NCBI GenBank assembly: GCA_947500295.1
Contig: CANMRM010000001.1
Coordinates: 62,001 to 126,000 of the forward strand
Origin: an uncultured Kordiimonas sp.
GTDB lineage: Bacteria > Pseudomonadota > Alphaproteobacteria > Sphingomonadales > Kordiimonadaceae
Direction: 5' to 3'
Length of the DNA: 64,000 nucleotides
Position 1 is the first letter of the stretch; each line of letters starts with the position of its first letter. The position numbers and the translations under genes were made by a program. Below, piece after piece: positions 12,689 to 23,384 of the stretch. The notes beneath the pieces are model-generated. The model saw nothing but the letters and a program-made list of their open reading frames with translations. It was not told the origin of the DNA and did no database searches.

Positions 12689-12833
12689 TCCCAATGCTGG
12701 AGCAGCGTTTGTGCTGACCTGCCTCATGTCTTTGGTTTCTGCGGCCCCCTATTGAATGCAACCGCGAAAAAAGCTAGTGTCCGCGCCGTTGAACCCGGCA
12801 AGTGGGGGGCACTGGCCAGCATTCAGCGGGACT

Positions 12834-13439
12834 ATGGGGCGAACATTGGCTGACATCCTTCGAGTATTCGTCGAGAACGAGCGAGCGCTGCGCCGGTATC
12901 TGGCACGATTTCTGAGCCGCCCTCAAGATATTGAAGACGTTGCTCAGGAAGCCTTCCTCAAAACCTTTGCCGCAGACGCCAAGCAGGACATTCAGGCGCC
13001 CAAGTCCTTTCTGTTTACGGTTGCAAAGCATACTGCCCTCAATGAAACAGCACGGAAAGCAACCACAACAACAGACTATATTGAGGATTCCGAAACCTCA
13101 TCTGTCTTAGAAGATAAGGGTCAGGTGAGCGCAGAAAGCGAGCTTGATAGCAAACGCAAGCTTTTGGTGTTTTCACAGGCGGTGGCAAACCTGCCGCCAA
13201 ATTGCCGTCGCGCCTTCCTGCTGCGCAAGCTGGAAGGCCTGAAAGTCAAGGAAATAGCACGGGAAATGAATATCTCGGTGAGCGGCGTGGAAAAACACAT
13301 TGCCACCGGATTGGTAAAATGTAGTCAATATTTCAAAGAGCACGGATATGATCCGTCCGAATTTGGCGCGTCGTCCACACCAAAAGGCTGTACAGCGCAG
13401 GAAACCATATCTGCGCTGGTGAAAGTTCGAGATGAGTAA
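12834..13439 (+). CDS. ECF-family RNA polymerase sigma factor (FecI-like)
   Basis: A sigma-70 family regulator of the extracytoplasmic type, controlled by the FecR-like protein that overlaps it. The 201 residues have region 2 (YLARFLSRPQDIEDVAQEAF) and region 4 (LPPNCRRAFLLRKLEGLKVKEIA, then the helix-turn-helix MNISVSGVEKHIATGL). The sequence between 12756 and 12834 is open but not sigma-like, so I chose ATG 12834. The stop overlaps the fecR ATG by 8 bases. The target is expected to be the receptor gene at 14707. Confidence 0.9.
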   Translation: MGRTLADILRVFVENERALRRYLARFLSRPQDIEDVAQEAFLKTFAADAKQDIQAPKSFLFTVAKHTALNETARKATTTTDYIEDSETSSVLEDKGQVSAESELDSKRKLLVFSQAVANLPPNCRRAFLLRKLEGLKVKEIAREMNISVSGVEKHIATGLVKCSQYFKEHGYDPSEFGASSTPKGCTAQETISALVKVRDE

Positions 13440-14478
13440 GTCTGAGAATATCGTTGAGTTTCCCGACCTCAAGGCCATTGAGGAAGAGGCCGCCGTATGG
13501 GTGGCCCAGCTCGACTCGCGCGGTGTATCGGGCATCAACCAAAAAGAACTGGACGACTGGCTCAATGTCAGTGTGCATCACCTGGAGGCCTTTGAGCGCA
13601 TGGCTGCGCTCTGGGTCGGTGCTGATATCCTGGACGCGCTCAACTATAAAGAGGGTGTGGAAGAGGCCAGGAAACTATCGCGGCGGAACCTGAACGCCAC
13701 CCGGTGGATCAAGGGTATTGCCGCCACATTCGTCGTCGCTGCATCAGTGATGCTGGCGCAGTACGTCAACAACGCGCCTACAACGCAAACGGCGGAGTTT
13801 GCCACCATTATCGGTGAGCAAAAGACCATTCGACTGGCCGACGGATCAGACGTCATTTTGAACACCAACAGCGAAATCTCGATCAACCTGACTGACACCA
13901 GGCGGGAGGTGGTTTTACTGAGGGGTGAAGCGCATTTTGATGTGGCTCATGAACCGGAGCGCCCATTTGTTGTGTACGCCCGGGACGGCATCGTCAAAGC
14001 CGTTGGCACGGCCTTCACAGTCCACCTGAGGCGCGAGAAAGTGGAAGTAACGGTTTCAGAAGGGGTTGTGGCTATTCTCTCAAGACCGCCCGACACCGTC
14101 AATGTGGCCATCAGGGATGTTGAGGTCGATGAACTACTGCCCATAGCGGCTCTTACAGTGGGTGAAAGCGCTGTTATCGAGGAAGAAGCGGTCGAGAGTG
14201 TTGTGCGCATGAGTGAAGATGCGCTGGACCGCAAGCTTTTGTGGCGCGGCGGCTTCATTGCCTTCGCGGGAGAACCGCTTTCCACTGTGGTGGCAGATGT
14301 CAGTCGCTACACAGATATCCTGATTGAGATCGATGACCCTTCACTCGAAACACTTCCTATTGGGGGCTATTTCAAAGTCGGCGAAGTGGAAGATATGTTT
14401 GAGTCGCTTGAAGCATCTTTTGGTATCACGGTCACCCGGATCAGCCCTTCCAGGGTCCTCCTCTCTCGAACATCGTAA
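13432..14478 (+). CDS. FecR family anti-sigma factor/signal transducer
   Basis: An inner-membrane protein that relays the signal from the outer-membrane receptor to the sigma factor. The 348 residues include an N-terminal cytoplasmic DUF4880-type sigma-binding helix set (AAVWVAQLDSRG, HLEAFERMAALW) and one membrane helix near residues 88-106. A periplasmic FecR domain follows (about 118-215, with EQKTIRLADGSDVILN and RGEAHFDVAHE) and then a C-terminal STN-like domain (FKVGEVEDMFESLEASFGI). A run of acidic residues lies between the last two. Confidence 0.92.
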   Translation: MSKSENIVEFPDLKAIEEEAAVWVAQLDSRGVSGINQKELDDWLNVSVHHLEAFERMAALWVGADILDALNYKEGVEEARKLSRRNLNATRWIKGIAATFVVAASVMLAQYVNNAPTTQTAEFATIIGEQKTIRLADGSDVILNTNSEISINLTDTRREVVLLRGEAHFDVAHEPERPFVVYARDGIVKAVGTAFTVHLRREKVEVTVSEGVVAILSRPPDTVNVAIRDVEVDELLPIAALTVGESAVIEEEAVESVVRMSEDALDRKLLWRGGFIAFAGEPLSTVVADVSRYTDILIEIDDPSLETLPIGGYFKVGEVEDMFESLEASFGITVTRISPSRVLLSRTS

Positions 14479-14706
14479 GCCTAATAACAAGTTCGCTCTG
14501 GTCTTTGATGCTGTTGTCAGAATACAACGCTGAGCGTGTTTGGTGGTTCCCGGCTGCAGTCTGCGGTTGTTTATGTGTGCGTGCCCGGTTCGCTCAAGAA
14601 TAATATCAAACTCACTGAGGATTTTGGATTCCCATCTGTCTTAGCAAATAAGGCCGGTGGAAAAGAACGGGAATACTGACTGATCACTGGGCCGACACAT
14701 AAGGGG

Positions 14707-17454
14707 GTGCCATTCTGGATCGTAGTTTTTGTGACTGCGTTCCTGATGGCAATATCAGGTTCTTACCGCACCGCATCCGCCCAAGGGGATGCAACCGTTG
14801 AGCGGTTCGAGTTTGATATATCGGAGGAGACGCTTGGCGATGCGCTTGCCGCATTTACGCGTCAAGCACGTGTGCAGCTTCTGTACCCCTATGAGTTGGC
14901 TGATACAAAGGGCATGAAACCTGTATCTGGTCAGTACTCCATTCTGGAAGCCCTGGAGATCATGTTCCAGGGCACGGACTTTTCCGGCGGCCTTACCCGG
15001 CGCGGCGTCGTGACGATCTCGCGCAATGAGGGAAAAACAAGGCAAGTTGGGGAGGACCAAATGCTTACGAAAAGACGTAAACGATCGCTATTGGCGACAA
15101 TATCAGCGCTCGTATTCGGCGCAACCGGCGCCGGTGCGCAGGATGGCGCGAACGCTGATGCCGAGATTGATGAAATCATTGTAACGGCAACAAAGCGCGC
15201 GACCACTTTGCAGGAAGTGCCGTTTTCCATTAATGCACAAACCGCCCAGGACATAAGGCGGAGTGGGGCAACCAACCTTGAAGAGCTTTCTCAAAACGTT
15301 GCAGGCTTGACGATCCAGAATCTGGGCCCGGGCCAGAGCCAGGTGGCTATTCGTGGTGTGTCAGCAGGCCAGATTGTCCGTGACCAGCCGGGCGTGAAAG
15401 AGCAGGTTGGCGTCTATCTGGACGAATCGGTAATTTCTCTCTCGCTTTTTACACCAGACCTTGATCTTTTTGACCTCAATCGCGTTGAGACACTTCGCGG
15501 GCCACAGGGCACATTGTTTGGGTCAGGCTCCGTCGGCGGCACCATCCGCTATATCACCAACCAACCTGTGTTGGGTGAGCAAACTCTGGACCTGGAAGGC
15601 AGCCTGAACGCCATTGATGGCGGCAGCATCGGCGGCCACATCAAGGGCGCGGCAAATGTGCCGCTGGGTGACACCGCTGCTATTCGAGTTGTTGGCTATC
15701 ACACCGAATATGGTGGTTTCATTGATGCCCTGCGTGAAAACGGCAACATTAATGAAAATGTCAACACGGGCTATCGCACGGGCGGGCGTATTGCGCTGCG
15801 CTTTGAACCAAGCGAAAACCTGACGATCACACCGCGGGTTATCTATCAGGAAATCGATACCGACGGTTTCAACCGGCAGGAAGTATTCAACCTGTTCGCC
15901 AACCCGTTCACGACAACCAGAACCCCGGTTCAGCTTGGCGAACGACAACAGTACCTGAGGCTCCGTGAAGGTTTCTCTGATGAGACATTGATCATTGACG
16001 GTACCATCGAATACAGCACCGAAACCTTCGATATCACCTCGGTTACAAGCTTCACAGACCGTGACATTCTGGTCAGCCGGGACGCAAGCGCACTTACGGG
16101 TAGTGTATCGGTAGACCTTGGATATCCGGATTCAGCAGTACTTATCCCTTCTAACCTCTTGGACTCGACAGCGGTTGAGCAATTCACACAGGAGTTCCGC
16201 CTCAGTTCAAACGGTGATGGTCCGTTCCAGTGGCTGATTGGTGGCTTCTATTCAGACACCGAACGGGTCTATCAGCAGGAATTGCCCACACCCGGTTATG
16301 ATGCAGTAACCGATGCTGTTCTGGGGGCAGGTACATCCGAAGCTGTTGGCTTTGGCCGCGCACCGGTCGATTCGCCGTTTTTCTCGCAGTTGCCCTATGA
16401 CCTCGAGCAAACTGCCATCTTTGGTGAGTTCACTTATGACGTGACCGAACGGCTGCATCTGACGGCAGGGGGTCGTTATTATGACTATAACGAAACCCGG
16501 ACCGTAACCCAGGTTGGCTTGTTTGGTAACGGCGTTGTGGACCAGGTGGACGACACATCCGCCGACGGCTTCACGCCTCGTGTTATCGTCAGCTATGACG
16601 TCAGTGAAGAAGTCACCGTAAATGCGCAGGCATCTCAAGGCTTCCGGCTCGGCGGCGTGAACGACCCCTTGAACACAGCCCTGTGTAACGAACAGGACCT
16701 CGTGATCTTTGGCGGCTTCCAGGACTATGACGACGAGACCATGTGGAACTATGAAGCCGGCGTCAAAGTTCAGCGCGGTGCCTTCACGTTCAATGCGGCC
16801 GCATTCTACAACGACATCTCAAACCTGCAGGTAACACTGGATGCCGGGTCATGCTCTTCCCGGATATCCTTTAACGTACCTGAAGCCCACACCATGGGGG
16901 TTGAGTTCGAACTGAAAGCCCAGCCAGCGGAAGGTCTTGACCTGTCGCTTGCAGGCAGCATCCTCGAAGCGGAGTTTGATTCAACCGTTATCGACAGCAA
17001 CGGCGCCGTGTTGGGTGGTGTTGAAGACGGCAATCGCCTGCCTTCGGTGCCTGAATTCCAGTTCGCCGGTACAGCAACCTACACGTTCCCGTTCGATACG
17101 GTCATCAACGATGCTGAAGCCTACGTCTCGACAACTTTCCAGCATGTCGGAACGCGCTTCACGCAACCCAGTGATCAGGTGGCGGGTGCTGGCGATTTTG
17201 TTTCAGGACTGCCGTTTGGCGGTGCATCCGGTAATGATGTCACAAGCCTTGATCTGGAGCTCGACAGCTATCAGATCTTGAACTTCAGCGCGGGCATCAT
17301 CACGCCCCGGTGGGAGTTCGTGGCTTATATCAACAACCTCACGGACGAGAATGCAAACCTGTCGTTTGACCGTGAACGTGGTGGGCGGGCTCGCCTCGGG
17401 TTCCGTACAAACCAGCCGCGGACATTCGGCATTATTGCGCGGACAAGCTTCTAA
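14707..17454 (+). CDS. TonB-dependent receptor with STN domain and a second internal signal peptide
   Basis: An outer-membrane transporter of the surface-signalling type. The 915-codon frame starts at GTG 14707 with a signal peptide, then an STN domain (residues about 32-106, FDISEETLGDALAAFTRQA) that would touch FecR. At M119 (base 15061), preceded by GGGGAGG, a second complete signal peptide follows (KRRKR, then a hydrophobic core to AGA). TonB box and plug (DEIIVTATKR, VAIRGVSAGQIVRD) and a 22-strand-type barrel ending in Phe come next. The inner start alone would make an STN-free receptor. The ligand is unknown. The start at 14707 has no well-spaced ribosome site. Confidence 0.9.
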   Translation: MPFWIVVFVTAFLMAISGSYRTASAQGDATVERFEFDISEETLGDALAAFTRQARVQLLYPYELADTKGMKPVSGQYSILEALEIMFQGTDFSGGLTRRGVVTISRNEGKTRQVGEDQMLTKRRKRSLLATISALVFGATGAGAQDGANADAEIDEIIVTATKRATTLQEVPFSINAQTAQDIRRSGATNLEELSQNVAGLTIQNLGPGQSQVAIRGVSAGQIVRDQPGVKEQVGVYLDESVISLSLFTPDLDLFDLNRVETLRGPQGTLFGSGSVGGTIRYITNQPVLGEQTLDLEGSLNAIDGGSIGGHIKGAANVPLGDTAAIRVVGYHTEYGGFIDALRENGNINENVNTGYRTGGRIALRFEPSENLTITPRVIYQEIDTDGFNRQEVFNLFANPFTTTRTPVQLGERQQYLRLREGFSDETLIIDGTIEYSTETFDITSVTSFTDRDILVSRDASALTGSVSVDLGYPDSAVLIPSNLLDSTAVEQFTQEFRLSSNGDGPFQWLIGGFYSDTERVYQQELPTPGYDAVTDAVLGAGTSEAVGFGRAPVDSPFFSQLPYDLEQTAIFGEFTYDVTERLHLTAGGRYYDYNETRTVTQVGLFGNGVVDQVDDTSADGFTPRVIVSYDVSEEVTVNAQASQGFRLGGVNDPLNTALCNEQDLVIFGGFQDYDDETMWNYEAGVKVQRGAFTFNAAAFYNDISNLQVTLDAGSCSSRISFNVPEAHTMGVEFELKAQPAEGLDLSLAGSILEAEFDSTVIDSNGAVLGGVEDGNRLPSVPEFQFAGTATYTFPFDTVINDAEAYVSTTFQHVGTRFTQPSDQVAGAGDFVSGLPFGGASGNDVTSLDLELDSYQILNFSAGIITPRWEFVAYINNLTDENANLSFDRERGGRARLGFRTNQPRTFGIIARTSF

Positions 17455-17464
17455 ACAAGAAAGG

Positions 17465-17485
17465 CTGCGGGTACCTGACCCGCAG
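17465..17485 (+). terminator. Hairpin after the TonB receptor gene
   Basis: A perfect eight-base stem, CTGCGGGT with ACCCGCAG, lies eleven bases after the receptor stop codon. It lacks a T-run and precedes a second, stronger terminator at 17510. Confidence 0.5.
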
Positions 17486-17509
17486 CCCGAACACTATGGT
17501 ATTTCGGAA

Positions 17510-17541
17510 GGCGTCACCTTGGTTGGTGGCGCCTTTTTTTT
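17510..17541 (+). terminator. Rho-independent terminator
   Basis: A nine-base stem (GGCGTCACC with GGTGGCGCC, one G-T pair) is followed by eight T residues. It ends the receptor transcript just before the convergent SDR gene. Confidence 0.88.
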
Positions 17542-17553
17542 GATGCCGTCGCC

Positions 17554-18357
17554 CTATGAGTGGTGCATACCGCTCATGCCCATACCTGCTGACCCTGCCG
17601 CAACAGCACCCCCGTCCGCTGGTAAAATTACGCCCGTCACGTAACGGGCCGCATCCGATGACAGGAACAAACATACGTCGGCAACGTCATCGACCGTACC
17701 CATGCGCTGCAACGGCACAGCCTTCTCAACGGCCTCGCGCATTTTCTCGGTGGGGGCAAGGCGCGCCATCCCTTCCGTGCCATCGATCGGGCCGGGGATA
17801 ACCGAATTGACGCGGACCCCCATTGGGCCCCACTCAATTGCCAGGGTGCGCGTGACCATATCGACGCCCGCCTTTGCAGCGCACACATGGCTCTGGAGCG
17901 GCATGGCAATTTCAGCCTGTGGTGCAGAAATATTGATGATACTCGCGCCTGGTTGGTTGAGGTGTTCAAAGCCAGCCCGCAGAACATGGAAGGTGCCGAG
18001 AAGATCAATTTCGACGACAGATTTAAATCCGTTCGGACTCATGCCCAGGGCCGGTGCCGGGAAGTTGCCGGCAGCGCCGGAAATCAGAATATCAATCTTG
18101 CCGCCAGCATCGCGCACAAAGGATTTATAGACACTGCTCACCGCCTCAAAATCACGCACGTCAGCGCTATAGCAAAAAGCGTCCCCGCCGTGTGCCGCCA
18201 CTGCTGTACGAGCTGCTTCAGCTTTTTCTTCATTGCGGCCTACAACACCAACCGTTGCGCCTGCGCGGGCAAAAGCCTCGGCAATTCCCAAATTGATGCC
18301 GCTTGTGCCGCCAAACACCAGGACATTGCGTTTCTTGAAATCAAATTCTGCGTTCAT
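17554..18357 (-). CDS. SDR-family oxidoreductase, 2,4-dienoyl-CoA reductase-like
   Basis: An NAD(P)H-dependent reductase, probably acting on an enoyl- or dienoyl-CoA. The Rossmann motif is FGGTSGINLGIA (about 15-26), then SGAAGNFPAPA and the catalytic Lys in CAAKAGVDM. The usual tyrosine of YxxxK is replaced (QSHVCAAK), as in peroxisomal 2,4-dienoyl-CoA reductases. The ending IEWGPMGVRVNSVIPGPI then DGTEGM is also typical of that group. The tail is Gly/Met rich. It is convergent with the receptor gene and unlikely to be cotranscribed. Confidence 0.88.
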   Translation of the reverse strand: MNAEFDFKKRNVLVFGGTSGINLGIAEAFARAGATVGVVGRNEEKAEAARTAVAAHGGDAFCYSADVRDFEAVSSVYKSFVRDAGGKIDILISGAAGNFPAPALGMSPNGFKSVVEIDLLGTFHVLRAGFEHLNQPGASIINISAPQAEIAMPLQSHVCAAKAGVDMVTRTLAIEWGPMGVRVNSVIPGPIDGTEGMARLAPTEKMREAVEKAVPLQRMGTVDDVADVCLFLSSDAARYVTGVILPADGGAVAAGSAGMGMSGMHHS

Positions 18358-20036: not shown

Positions 20037-23000
20037 TCAGAAACTTAGCCTGAAGTTCAGCGACGCTTCATGGGACTCCAGAAAATCCTTTTCCCTGTAT
20101 GTATAGCGGACCGCAGCGTCCGTGCCCGAACCGAAGATTCTCAAGGCCAGACCGGCCGCTTTCACATTCTCACCAATTTCATCAATTGCAAAGTCCACGG
20201 TCGTGTCGGTTGCGGCAAAGCCGATGTCGACAGTACCAGAATCACCGCCGAGAAGGGCCGTTTGATATTGCGCAAACAATTCAGGCCGCACAAAGGTTGG
20301 GTTGGCACCTTCTCTCCAGGTAAAATCAAAACCTGCGGAAATACTCGCAAATCCATCCAGTTGTGACAAAGACCGGGAACCGACCCTCAGGTTGGCTGAC
20401 GCTGCACCCTCTTCCAGATAACTGCTTTCGCGGAAGTAGGTGCCGGTCACGCCGATTTCAGGGCGGAGTGAGAATTTGCCCGCCTGAAGCTGATACCCAA
20501 CCGACAAAGTTCCGAGAAACTGAATGGCGTTCGTTGCACTTTCGGCCTCAAGGGTCGTATTGCCGATAGCAATCGTGCGCTCGCGGTCAATGTCATGGAA
20601 TGCAGCGGTCGCAGACAGACCGGCATACAAATTGCCCGAGCGAACCATTGAGTACGCCCCCAGAAACGGCGTGAATACAGACAATTCATCGCCAACGTCC
20701 TGGTCTCTGGAGATGCCAGAGAGCAAAAAGCCGCCGGTCAGTCCCCAAGCGAAATTTTCACTTGCGTGCAGGTCTGCTCCAACCGCGACACCAACGCTCA
20801 GCAGGCTTGATTCCCAGTCTGACTCGTTTGATGACGTGCCGTTGGCGTATGTTGCCACCTGCTGCGCCCAAAAAACCTGATCCCGTCTGTCCTGGCGAAT
20901 AAAACCGGCCAGCGCGTCGCGCTGACGTGTCTGCTGAACATCACCCAGAACAAGGGCAAGGTCCATCGATGCGGAAGACGCATCACCTAAGAGCGCTGTA
21001 AACGCATCATTGGTGCCTTCCTGTGTTGTCAGGCTTGTGAGCGCGTTTTCAAGCTGGTCGTTGGGGTCGAGCGCGGTATCCAGAAAGTGCTCGTAAAGAA
21101 TCGTTGGATTGCGGTCCAGACCAAGTTCATCAGACGTTTTTGGCCGCACCGTGAGTTCCAGGTTATTTGGATCTGCCTCCGACAGCGCCAACGTGGTGTC
21201 GTAAAGAAACGGCGTTTCCGACAGTAGGGATGACAGGTCTTCCGTATCAACCGTCAAATCACCGGCTTCTAGAAAGCTGTATGTGGTTTCTGTGAATACA
21301 AAAGAGTTCAGGTCTGGGTCGATGCTTGTATCACCCGCGACAAAAACTGCGCCACTGGCAACCAGTCGCCCTTGCGTATCGCTTTGCGGGTCAAGCAAAA
21401 CACTCAGCGTGGAGGCATCTTCAAAACGTGCGCTCGTCACATTCACTGTTTCATCGAGTCCAAGCTCCAGGTCTGCGCCCGATACTGTCAGGTCAAGCGT
21501 GCCATCATGCAAGAGAGACCCTGTAAATTCAGACGTGCCGCTCAGCGAAAAGCTGTTGGCGCCAGCACCAAAATCAATATCACCCTCGAGAGTGCCCGAT
21601 TCAAACGTAACCGTATCGTCACCGGTGCCGAGCAATACATCACCCACCATGGTTCCGGAGTTAAAAAGCGACAGGCCTGACGTGTTGGTACGGGCGTCCA
21701 GCGCAATAGCGCCTCCGGTAAACGTATCCCCTGAAGGGTTTGACGTCAGAGCCCGCCACACACCTTCGTTGCGCACGTTTGTTAAAGTACCCGAACGGTC
21801 CACAACAACTGTCGCGGTGCCATCAGGACCGCCAGCAAGCGCCTGGATGGTTTCTTCGTTGACAATTGACGTCAGCACGCCGTTTTCAGCGACAGAGATA
21901 GCAGTCGCATCTCCGCCGGGGCCGTATGTGATGGTGCCATCGTCTGCTGTTGTGGTGGTTATTAACGCTTCAGCAATGATGGTGCCTCGGTTATAAATCT
22001 CTGGAACTTCGGCAAAGTCACCGACGATGATACCTGTTGCATCTGCGTCAATCACCGAAACGTCGAGTACGCCTGTGTCGAAATGAATGCCGCCTTCAAT
22101 CAGGGTACGTGCGGACGCGTCCCGGCCATTTATTTCAAAGCCAATACCCGGTAATCCGGGACTGGTTCCATTCACGTTAATGCGGCCGCGCGAGACAAGC
22201 CCATAATCAAGGCCCTCGATCAGGCCAATTGTCAGGTCACCGTCCGCATTTTCATTGTTAATGAGCGCAGCGGTAGTGCCACCATTTGTAGCGATAACGG
22301 AATCAGTGAGCGTCGTACTGTCGTCGCCATCCCCATCTTCAGTGAATTCGACACCTACACCCTGAAACAGGATACCCTGGCTGATTGAATTAGTGACCTC
22401 AAGCGCCGCAACGCCGGGTATTGCGTCAATGGTATTGCCGTCATCGTCCACGGTTGGTGTTTCACCAACCTGCATGGTGCCCGAAAAGACAAACGCACCA
22501 TCAATCGGGCCATTGATAGAAGCACCAATGCTGTCAGGGTTGGTGGCGATCACATCACCGGATATTGTCAGGTCGCCAGCGAGCGGCGCATTTAAGGCAA
22601 CGCCAACACCTCTATTTCCAAGAACCGTCAGGGTACCGTCAACCAGGATGTTCCCACTGAAAGCACTGTTGATCCGCACTGCAGCACTGTCTGCACCCCA
22701 AACGGAGATGGCGCTGTTGCTCGACAAAGTCAGGCTGCCGGTATAGGTGTTTGCACCCTCAATCAGCAGGCCGCTGTTTGTCGTTTCCAGACCCAGGTCC
22801 AGCTCGAAACCATCCGGGCCGTTCAATATGATGCCGCCATCCAGGATGAGGTCGCCTTCCAGAGCAAAGTCCGTATCAACAAACACACCGGTACCTGAGG
22901 TCGAATCGAAGCTCTGAACCGTTCCTGACAACGTGAGCGAATGCGGCCCGTTAACTGTAATGACAGGGCCCGTCGGCGCCGTGAGGGTAACCCCATCCAG

Positions 23001-23183
23001 CAACGAGAGTATGCCCGGCGATGCCCCGAGAAATTCACTAGTGGTGACGGCCGTATCGCGGTCTTCGGAAATTTCAGCATCCTGTGCGACAGCCGGCAAT
23101 GTTAAGGCAATTGCAGCAGAGCTGCATAAACTCAGTCTGGACAAGCGGTTGGTCCGCCCAGTTTGAGACGGGAAAGATAACAT
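20037..23183 (-). CDS. Autotransporter-domain outer-membrane protein (type Va)
   Basis: A secreted passenger on its own outer-membrane barrel. From ATG 23183 the 1048 residues have an atypical basic N-terminus then a signal core (LCSSAAIALTLPAVAQ). Residues 30 to about 700 are Asp/Ser/Thr/Gly-rich with short beta-repeat patterns (NGPHSLTLSGTV, GTGDDTVTFESGTLEGDI). A roughly 280-residue autotransporter beta domain follows and ends in Phe (SLNFRLSF). Adhesion is a guess. The open frame extends to 23291, but that part is not signal-like. Confidence 0.88.
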   Translation of the reverse strand: MLSFPSQTGRTNRLSRLSLCSSAAIALTLPAVAQDAEISEDRDTAVTTSEFLGASPGILSLLDGVTLTAPTGPVITVNGPHSLTLSGTVQSFDSTSGTGVFVDTDFALEGDLILDGGIILNGPDGFELDLGLETTNSGLLIEGANTYTGSLTLSSNSAISVWGADSAAVRINSAFSGNILVDGTLTVLGNRGVGVALNAPLAGDLTISGDVIATNPDSIGASINGPIDGAFVFSGTMQVGETPTVDDDGNTIDAIPGVAALEVTNSISQGILFQGVGVEFTEDGDGDDSTTLTDSVIATNGGTTAALINNENADGDLTIGLIEGLDYGLVSRGRINVNGTSPGLPGIGFEINGRDASARTLIEGGIHFDTGVLDVSVIDADATGIIVGDFAEVPEIYNRGTIIAEALITTTTADDGTITYGPGGDATAISVAENGVLTSIVNEETIQALAGGPDGTATVVVDRSGTLTNVRNEGVWRALTSNPSGDTFTGGAIALDARTNTSGLSLFNSGTMVGDVLLGTGDDTVTFESGTLEGDIDFGAGANSFSLSGTSEFTGSLLHDGTLDLTVSGADLELGLDETVNVTSARFEDASTLSVLLDPQSDTQGRLVASGAVFVAGDTSIDPDLNSFVFTETTYSFLEAGDLTVDTEDLSSLLSETPFLYDTTLALSEADPNNLELTVRPKTSDELGLDRNPTILYEHFLDTALDPNDQLENALTSLTTQEGTNDAFTALLGDASSASMDLALVLGDVQQTRQRDALAGFIRQDRRDQVFWAQQVATYANGTSSNESDWESSLLSVGVAVGADLHASENFAWGLTGGFLLSGISRDQDVGDELSVFTPFLGAYSMVRSGNLYAGLSATAAFHDIDRERTIAIGNTTLEAESATNAIQFLGTLSVGYQLQAGKFSLRPEIGVTGTYFRESSYLEEGAASANLRVGSRSLSQLDGFASISAGFDFTWREGANPTFVRPELFAQYQTALLGGDSGTVDIGFAATDTTVDFAIDEIGENVKAAGLALRIFGSGTDAAVRYTYREKDFLESHEASLNFRLSF

Positions 23184-23384
23184 AGAGTGTTGACCCCAAT
23201 TCGTGGCGATACGGATGGTACGCGAAACTGCGCTCGATCCTTTGGAGAGACCATGACATTTTTCCGGCCTCAATAAGGCGAAATGTGTCATGAGCAGCGT
23301 GCCAGCGCAAGTGCTTGATGATGTACGTCAATGAAGGTCCGACCCGGGCGACGCAAACTGACGACGTCATGCGGGAGGATAGAC

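Follow-up and report, generated by a model that had tools for sequence, protein, structure and literature searches.

A Kordiimonas TonB-dependent transducer gene with two putative nested translation starts, the second followed by its own signal peptide

A receptor gene of the cell-surface-signalling type was analyzed in a 64,000-nucleotide stretch of DNA from an uncultured Kordiimonas sp. (the window), where it occupies 14707-17454 of the forward strand. The gene probably has two nested in-frame translation starts, giving a transducer and a plain transporter. Translation from a start near 14707 would produce a long form, composed of a first signal peptide (SP1), an STN signalling domain, a second signal peptide (SP2) and the receptor, that would be a transducer able to contact FecR. 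Translation from 15061 would produce a short form, exported via SP2 and matured to a receptor beginning just before the TonB box. We infer that both products are made, and that one mRNA would supply transporters and transducers in a ratio set by the two ribosome sites. The long product is predicted because the frame is open and the STN domain is selected, the short product because the internal ribosome site is selected and is followed by a signal peptide. In the long form SP2 would enter the periplasm as a hydrophobic segment lying between the STN domain and the TonB box. The two products, one signalling-capable and one STN-free, had been proposed in the initial annotation, and a comparison across 44 loci supported them.

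The frame from GTG 14707 to 17454 is single and open and encodes 915 residues, with SP1, STN, internal ATG, SP2, TonB box, plug and barrel in that order. The features of the locus are listed below.

12756-13439, forward strand: FecI-like ECF sigma factor gene (Pfam Sigma70_r2 and r4_2)
13432-14478, forward strand: FecR-type anti-sigma factor gene (Pfam FecR 1.9e-19, DUF4880)
14616-14643, forward strand: conserved non-coding block TGAGGATTTT...GTCTTA, similar across four aligned orthologues
14707-14784, forward strand: SP1, GTG start uncertain; hydrophobic N-terminus up to ASAQ (~14784)
14797-15024, forward strand: STN signalling domain, from profile matches to solved signalling domains
15049-15055, forward strand: internal Shine-Dalgarno GGGGAGG, 5 nt before the ATG; predicted duplex -11.4 kcal/mol
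15061-15063, forward strand: internal start codon ATG (M119); ATG, GTG or TTG at this site in 44/44 loci
15061-15138, forward strand: SP2, MLTKRRKRSLLATISALVFGATGAGA, cut expected before Q; positive n-region in 44/44 loci
15172-15189, forward strand: TonB box EIIVTA, read from the translation
15208-15543, forward strand: plug domain (Pfam Plug 1.2e-17, residues 168-279)
15859-17340, forward strand: TonB-dependent beta-barrel (Pfam TonB_dep_Rec 1.4e-40, residues 385-878)

The frame with its STN domain, internal ATG, GGGGAGG, SP2 and TonB box was found at the positions first annotated. For the first start, the frame at 14707 stood and the exact codon did not: the ribosome site of GTG 14707 is poor and crowded, and other codons appear, on our reading, to be preferred in three other aligned orthologues, leaving the first start uncertain. 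The block at 14616-14643 could be an ECF promoter of the receptor gene; the strict TGAGGATTTT...GTCTTA pattern was present in 3 of 14 loci (L001, L069 and L121, in another form in L121). A second non-coding block between fecR and the receptor gene (blocks within 14510-14645) resembles an inverted repeat, TTGTTGT...AATGCAACG. No sigma-70-like promoter was found in 14400-17700, which leaves a separate short-form transcript unsupported. An autotransporter gene (20037-23291, reverse strand, 1084 residues, Pfam Autotransporter beta-domain) lies near the receptor locus.

The gene has the TonB box, plug and TonB-dependent barrel of a transducer, and the ECF sigma factor and FecR-type anti-sigma factor genes adjoin it at 12756-13439 and 13432-14478; NCBIfam FecI-type matches of the sigma factor were below their cut-offs. 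The N-terminal STN domain was assigned by profile, the single sequence being below the Pfam cut-off (17.9 bits vs 28.4). A 12-row profile of the module matched the solved signalling domains of PupA (2a02, 1.2e-10) and FpvA (5odw, 8e-9), and also those of PupB, HasR and FecA. The locus gave the sole Pfam STN match of this genome, itself weak, and the sole module-profile match at E 1e-12 among the candidates scored. Transducers of this type usually have one signal peptide, located before the STN domain, a trait that is not needed for signalling. FecA, FpvA, PupA/PupB, HasR and FoxA resemble the window gene in having an STN domain before the TonB box, plug and barrel, and FecI/FecR-type genes alongside; it differs from them in that a further start and signal peptide follow STN and precede the TonB box (SP2 at 15061-15138). 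Since the defining domains and neighbours are present, the gene was treated as a variant despite SP2, and is classed by sequence as a putative cell-surface-signalling TonB-dependent transducer. The signalling domain of such transducers is described as an N-terminal extension in an extract of one review (PMC9249621).

A search of 29 genomes of the family with STN + SP2 returned further receptors with the same N-terminal module, whose receptor parts were 27-34% identical to that of the window where measured. The order was searched with an alignment of the module (A1) in 396 genomes, giving at least 56 places in 37 genomes, and all 56 were read. A hydrophobic signal-like segment followed the STN domain in 36 and was absent from 20, of which 19 are receptors and one (L106) is not. 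In 385 genomes of the class at least three further places were found, and two of them have the layout. Across 398 genomes of the phylum, 67 had matches, at no fewer than 141 places; of the 29 loci read from these, six were new and had the layout (one belonging to the class, the other five not), 21 lacked it, one was ambiguous and one was a repeat. The final set contained 44 distinct STN-receptor loci with the SP1-STN-start-SP2 layout, 39 from the same class and five from outside. L148 (n-region long, ambiguous) and repeat fetches were left out, and L147 and L073, which are one gene, were counted once; L080, L082 and L088 are receptors left incomplete by a stop or a contig end. The 44 loci are related, forming 16 clusters at 45% identity, and were chosen by eye for a hydrophobic segment, so their hydrophobicity is not independent evidence.

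A later sample from an order outside the class (247 genomes, 16 with matches) gave 12 new loci, six with the segment and six without, and all six segment-bearing loci had a single in-frame ATG directly before it. The layout was therefore seen in 50 loci, 44 plus the six later ones. Plasmid searches gave no named public example of the layout, returning receptor-part matches, nothing, or six weak matches, and the Catenovulum match that was read had no second signal peptide. A scan of genome contigs gave five loci, and the four read had no STN in frame. As judged from these sequences, the layout recurs beyond this genome and is not a local accident.

The internal start was examined across the 44 loci. 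The junction codon is ATG in 24; the other 20 encode Val or Leu and are spelled GTG or TTG in every case (product of expected codon frequencies 3.8e-12, the loci not being independent). In the 29 loci of the strict subset, defined by a Glu at the third residue before the junction, all 17 non-Met sites are start codons. Junction sites were placed by hand on a protein alignment, with 15 of 44 outside the strict motif or spacing. Two other ways of choosing the site were less accurate: an automatic choice misplaced L099, and a 'last Met' rule misplaced L072, L083, L094, L099, L100, L102 and others, still giving a joint z of -5.5 (31 loci) and p 0.0014 (one per cluster, 11).

Duplex energies with the anti-Shine-Dalgarno were calculated over the seven codons before the junction. 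The mean was -8.05 kcal/mol in the 44 loci vs -4.40 kcal/mol after synonymous shuffling (z -10.7), and the median z was -6.1 with one locus per cluster (16 clusters). A chance Shine-Dalgarno was rejected by this joint test over 44 loci, which alone is strong, single-locus p values running from 0.015 to 0.77. The Arg of the motif is CGG or AGG in 19 of 20 cases (6.6 expected) and the Glu is GAG in 18 of 20 (7.5 expected). The window site reaches -11.4 kcal/mol, where -6.6 is expected from its amino acids. For comparison, the starts presumed for 16 unfused orthologues, out of 23, gave -8.56, near the internal-site energies. The 20 STN frames without a segment gave -2.8 vs -3.7 expected, one reaching p 0.044. 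Plain STN receptors were rejected as an explanation, as these 20 of the 56 order frames have neither the second segment nor such a ribosome site.

The strength of the internal site varied. It was weak in the five loci of the SEGxxM clade (p 0.38-0.49) and in the five outside the class (-2.9 to -6.6 kcal/mol), no better than shuffles in L082 and L150, and moderate in the six later loci (-3.3 to -5.9 kcal/mol). It was stronger than the best upstream site in 32 of 44 loci and not in 12. In the window it scores -11.4 vs -2.4 for the best upstream site, so the short form would probably be the more abundant. The RNA fold around the internal start was unremarkable (z -0.93). A predicted hairpin, UUGG/CCAA at 15046-15060, places the internal Shine-Dalgarno in the loop; the overall fold is not significant. 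The gene has both a conserved internal start codon and a conserved ribosome site, the latter weaker in the later sample.

Selection was measured in five orthologues. dN/dS was 0.83 for SP1, 0.08 for STN, 0.11 for SP2 and 0.07 for the start of the plug; STN and SP2 are under purifying selection and SP1 barely. The codons bearing the Shine-Dalgarno had a pS of 0.30, compared with 0.62-0.66 in STN, SP2 and plug and 0.48 in SP1, a low value obtained from 13 codons with three of the five orthologues near relatives. Sequence comparison thus supports the internal start, SP2, the open frame and selection on STN and SP2. The stretch from start to core of SP2 is net positive in 44/44 loci and is followed by A-x-A in 31/44.

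These measurements bear on an alternative in which the long form alone is made, with SP2 serving as a conserved linker in the periplasm and the R-E-E residues producing the ribosome site incidentally. The conservation of SP2 and the recurrence of a core like LLASISALLFG in distant receptors speak for such a linker. It would leave aside that synonymous codons are chosen to suit a ribosome site more than the amino acids require, that the Val/Leu sites are GTG or TTG in 20/20, and that the n-region is positive throughout; this alternative is considered unlikely. The core LLASISALLFG is more similar across distant receptors than we would expect of a signal peptide, which hints at a second role. 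SP2 is better conserved than SP1. This suggests that, in addition to directing export of a short form, SP2 acts as a peptide within the long form; the same conservation would also fit a linker role alone.

Orthologues were compared within the genus. A close receptor was present in 28 of 59 genomes, at 30 places or more. Four orthologues (L001, L031, L032 and L034) are fusions that have both STN and a second signal peptide. L037 is truncated at the end of its contig, and L067 of the same draft genome, also cut and fused, looks like its other half. L058 and L059 have STN and no second signal peptide. The remaining 23 of the 30 places had no STN by frame or tblastn, from which it follows that the module came or went within the genus. 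Fused rows did not form one clade in a tree of the orthologous barrels; its count of changes is inflated because L037, labelled unfused, is the cut-off half of a fused gene. SP2 of the four fused orthologues was scored against SP2 of nine distant receptors bearing the module (BLOSUM score 60.9 on average, lowest 42) and against the signal peptides of 16 unfused orthologues whose receptors are 48-76% identical (mean 15.8, highest 43.5), the two ranges touching at 42-43.5. SP2 therefore goes with STN and not with the receptor, and SP1-STN-start-SP2 behaves as one inherited cassette.

The initial annotation had read the gene as a separate STN protein and receptor newly joined, with CAA at 15058, one base from TAA, as the trace. 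The codon was given no weight: it differs in most relatives, and no stop occurs there in the 44 loci. The search it had called for, for a stop before 15061 in relatives, found none in the stretch separating STN from the internal start in any of the 44 loci, and the frame is likewise uninterrupted in the six later ones. Had two genes fused recently and locally when a stop codon was lost, the 23 of 30 orthologous places without STN would be accommodated, with the module coming or going within the genus. The same layout, however, precedes receptors only 27-34% identical and recurs outside the class, SP2 goes with STN, and the join is without a stop in all 50 loci read; such a fusion is scarcely credible. 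No STN gene ending before a receptor was found among eight short STN frames (L106 and seven from the phylum search), of which seven look, on our reading, like STN with a TonB-like C-terminus and one is a broken receptor. An STN gene in another frame would escape the in-frame profile only where its own match was below threshold. L106 and L190-L195 are short proteins that apparently combine STN with a TonB-like C-terminal domain, which is a use of STN distinct from that in receptors.

Were the internal start alone of importance, the STN part would be a relic or hardly translated. The poor ribosome site at GTG 14707 and the drift of the first start among orthologues would agree with this, as would L084, which keeps the internal start despite a TGA inside its STN domain. 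That TGA is the sole stop in the STN part among the 44 loci; in the other 43 the frame stays open from STN until past the internal start. L084 and L080 are STN receptors of one draft genome (G014), each with an in-frame stop, that of L080 being a TAA in the plug, and the two stops may be decay or sequence error. STN is also held at a dN/dS of 0.08 in the five orthologues, and of the 36 order loci, 35 have a tblastn match to the window FecR upstream (a weak one in L103), L097 being the exception. A relic STN is accordingly regarded as very improbable.

As no stop follows STN, translation alone cannot yield a free STN protein and proteolysis would be needed. In FbcH-type cytochrome b/c1 polyproteins, an internal signal peptide lies within one reading frame and a single product is cut; the window gene differs in its conserved internal ribosome site, which points to a second start. 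A polyprotein reading would have signal peptidase or another periplasmic protease cut the long product at SP2 into separate STN and receptor. The A-x-A-type sites after SP2 in 31 of 44 loci favour it, and an extract of one study (PMC11637429) reports FoxA of Pseudomonas aeruginosa as full-length and STN-free-size bands in a prc mutant, the STN-free form being attributed to periplasmic processing. In FoxA, going by that extract, the STN-free form arises by processing in the periplasm; in the window gene it is proposed to arise by translation. Topology weighs against a polyprotein: STN would be exported first, so the positive n-region of SP2 would have to return inside for signal peptidase. The conserved ribosome site would be left unexplained, and the window SP2 scores as a poor membrane anchor (+1.2 on a rough home-made scale). 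A polyprotein is thus held to be improbable, and two nested starts are preferred.

Alternative in-frame starts are exemplified by CheA and ClpB. OmpX and PagC proteoforms from such starts differ in the signal peptide, according to an extract of a further study (PMC11005335); as described there, their short form is without a signal peptide, whereas in the window gene the short form carries one of its own, and export is expected of both forms. Among the matches listed from the open-access journal articles searched, none described nested starts in TonB receptors. Beyond the window gene, we put at even chances a wider reading of a widespread, unrecognised receptor class in which nested translation would fix the ratio of signalling to non-signalling receptors. 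In that class SP2 would be cut off the short form as a signal peptide, and in the long form would be a conserved segment that couples STN to the plug in the periplasm, the cassette having been passed between unrelated barrels.

Accounts of surface signalling usually involve a single receptor species that performs both transport and signalling. If the proposal is correct, a gene encoding a transducer as well as a transporter that is signal-blind would uncouple uptake capacity from signalling gain. This could explain how many transporters are accommodated without over-engaging a scarce anti-sigma factor. A gene caller that settles on a single start would miss either the STN domain or the genuine short product.
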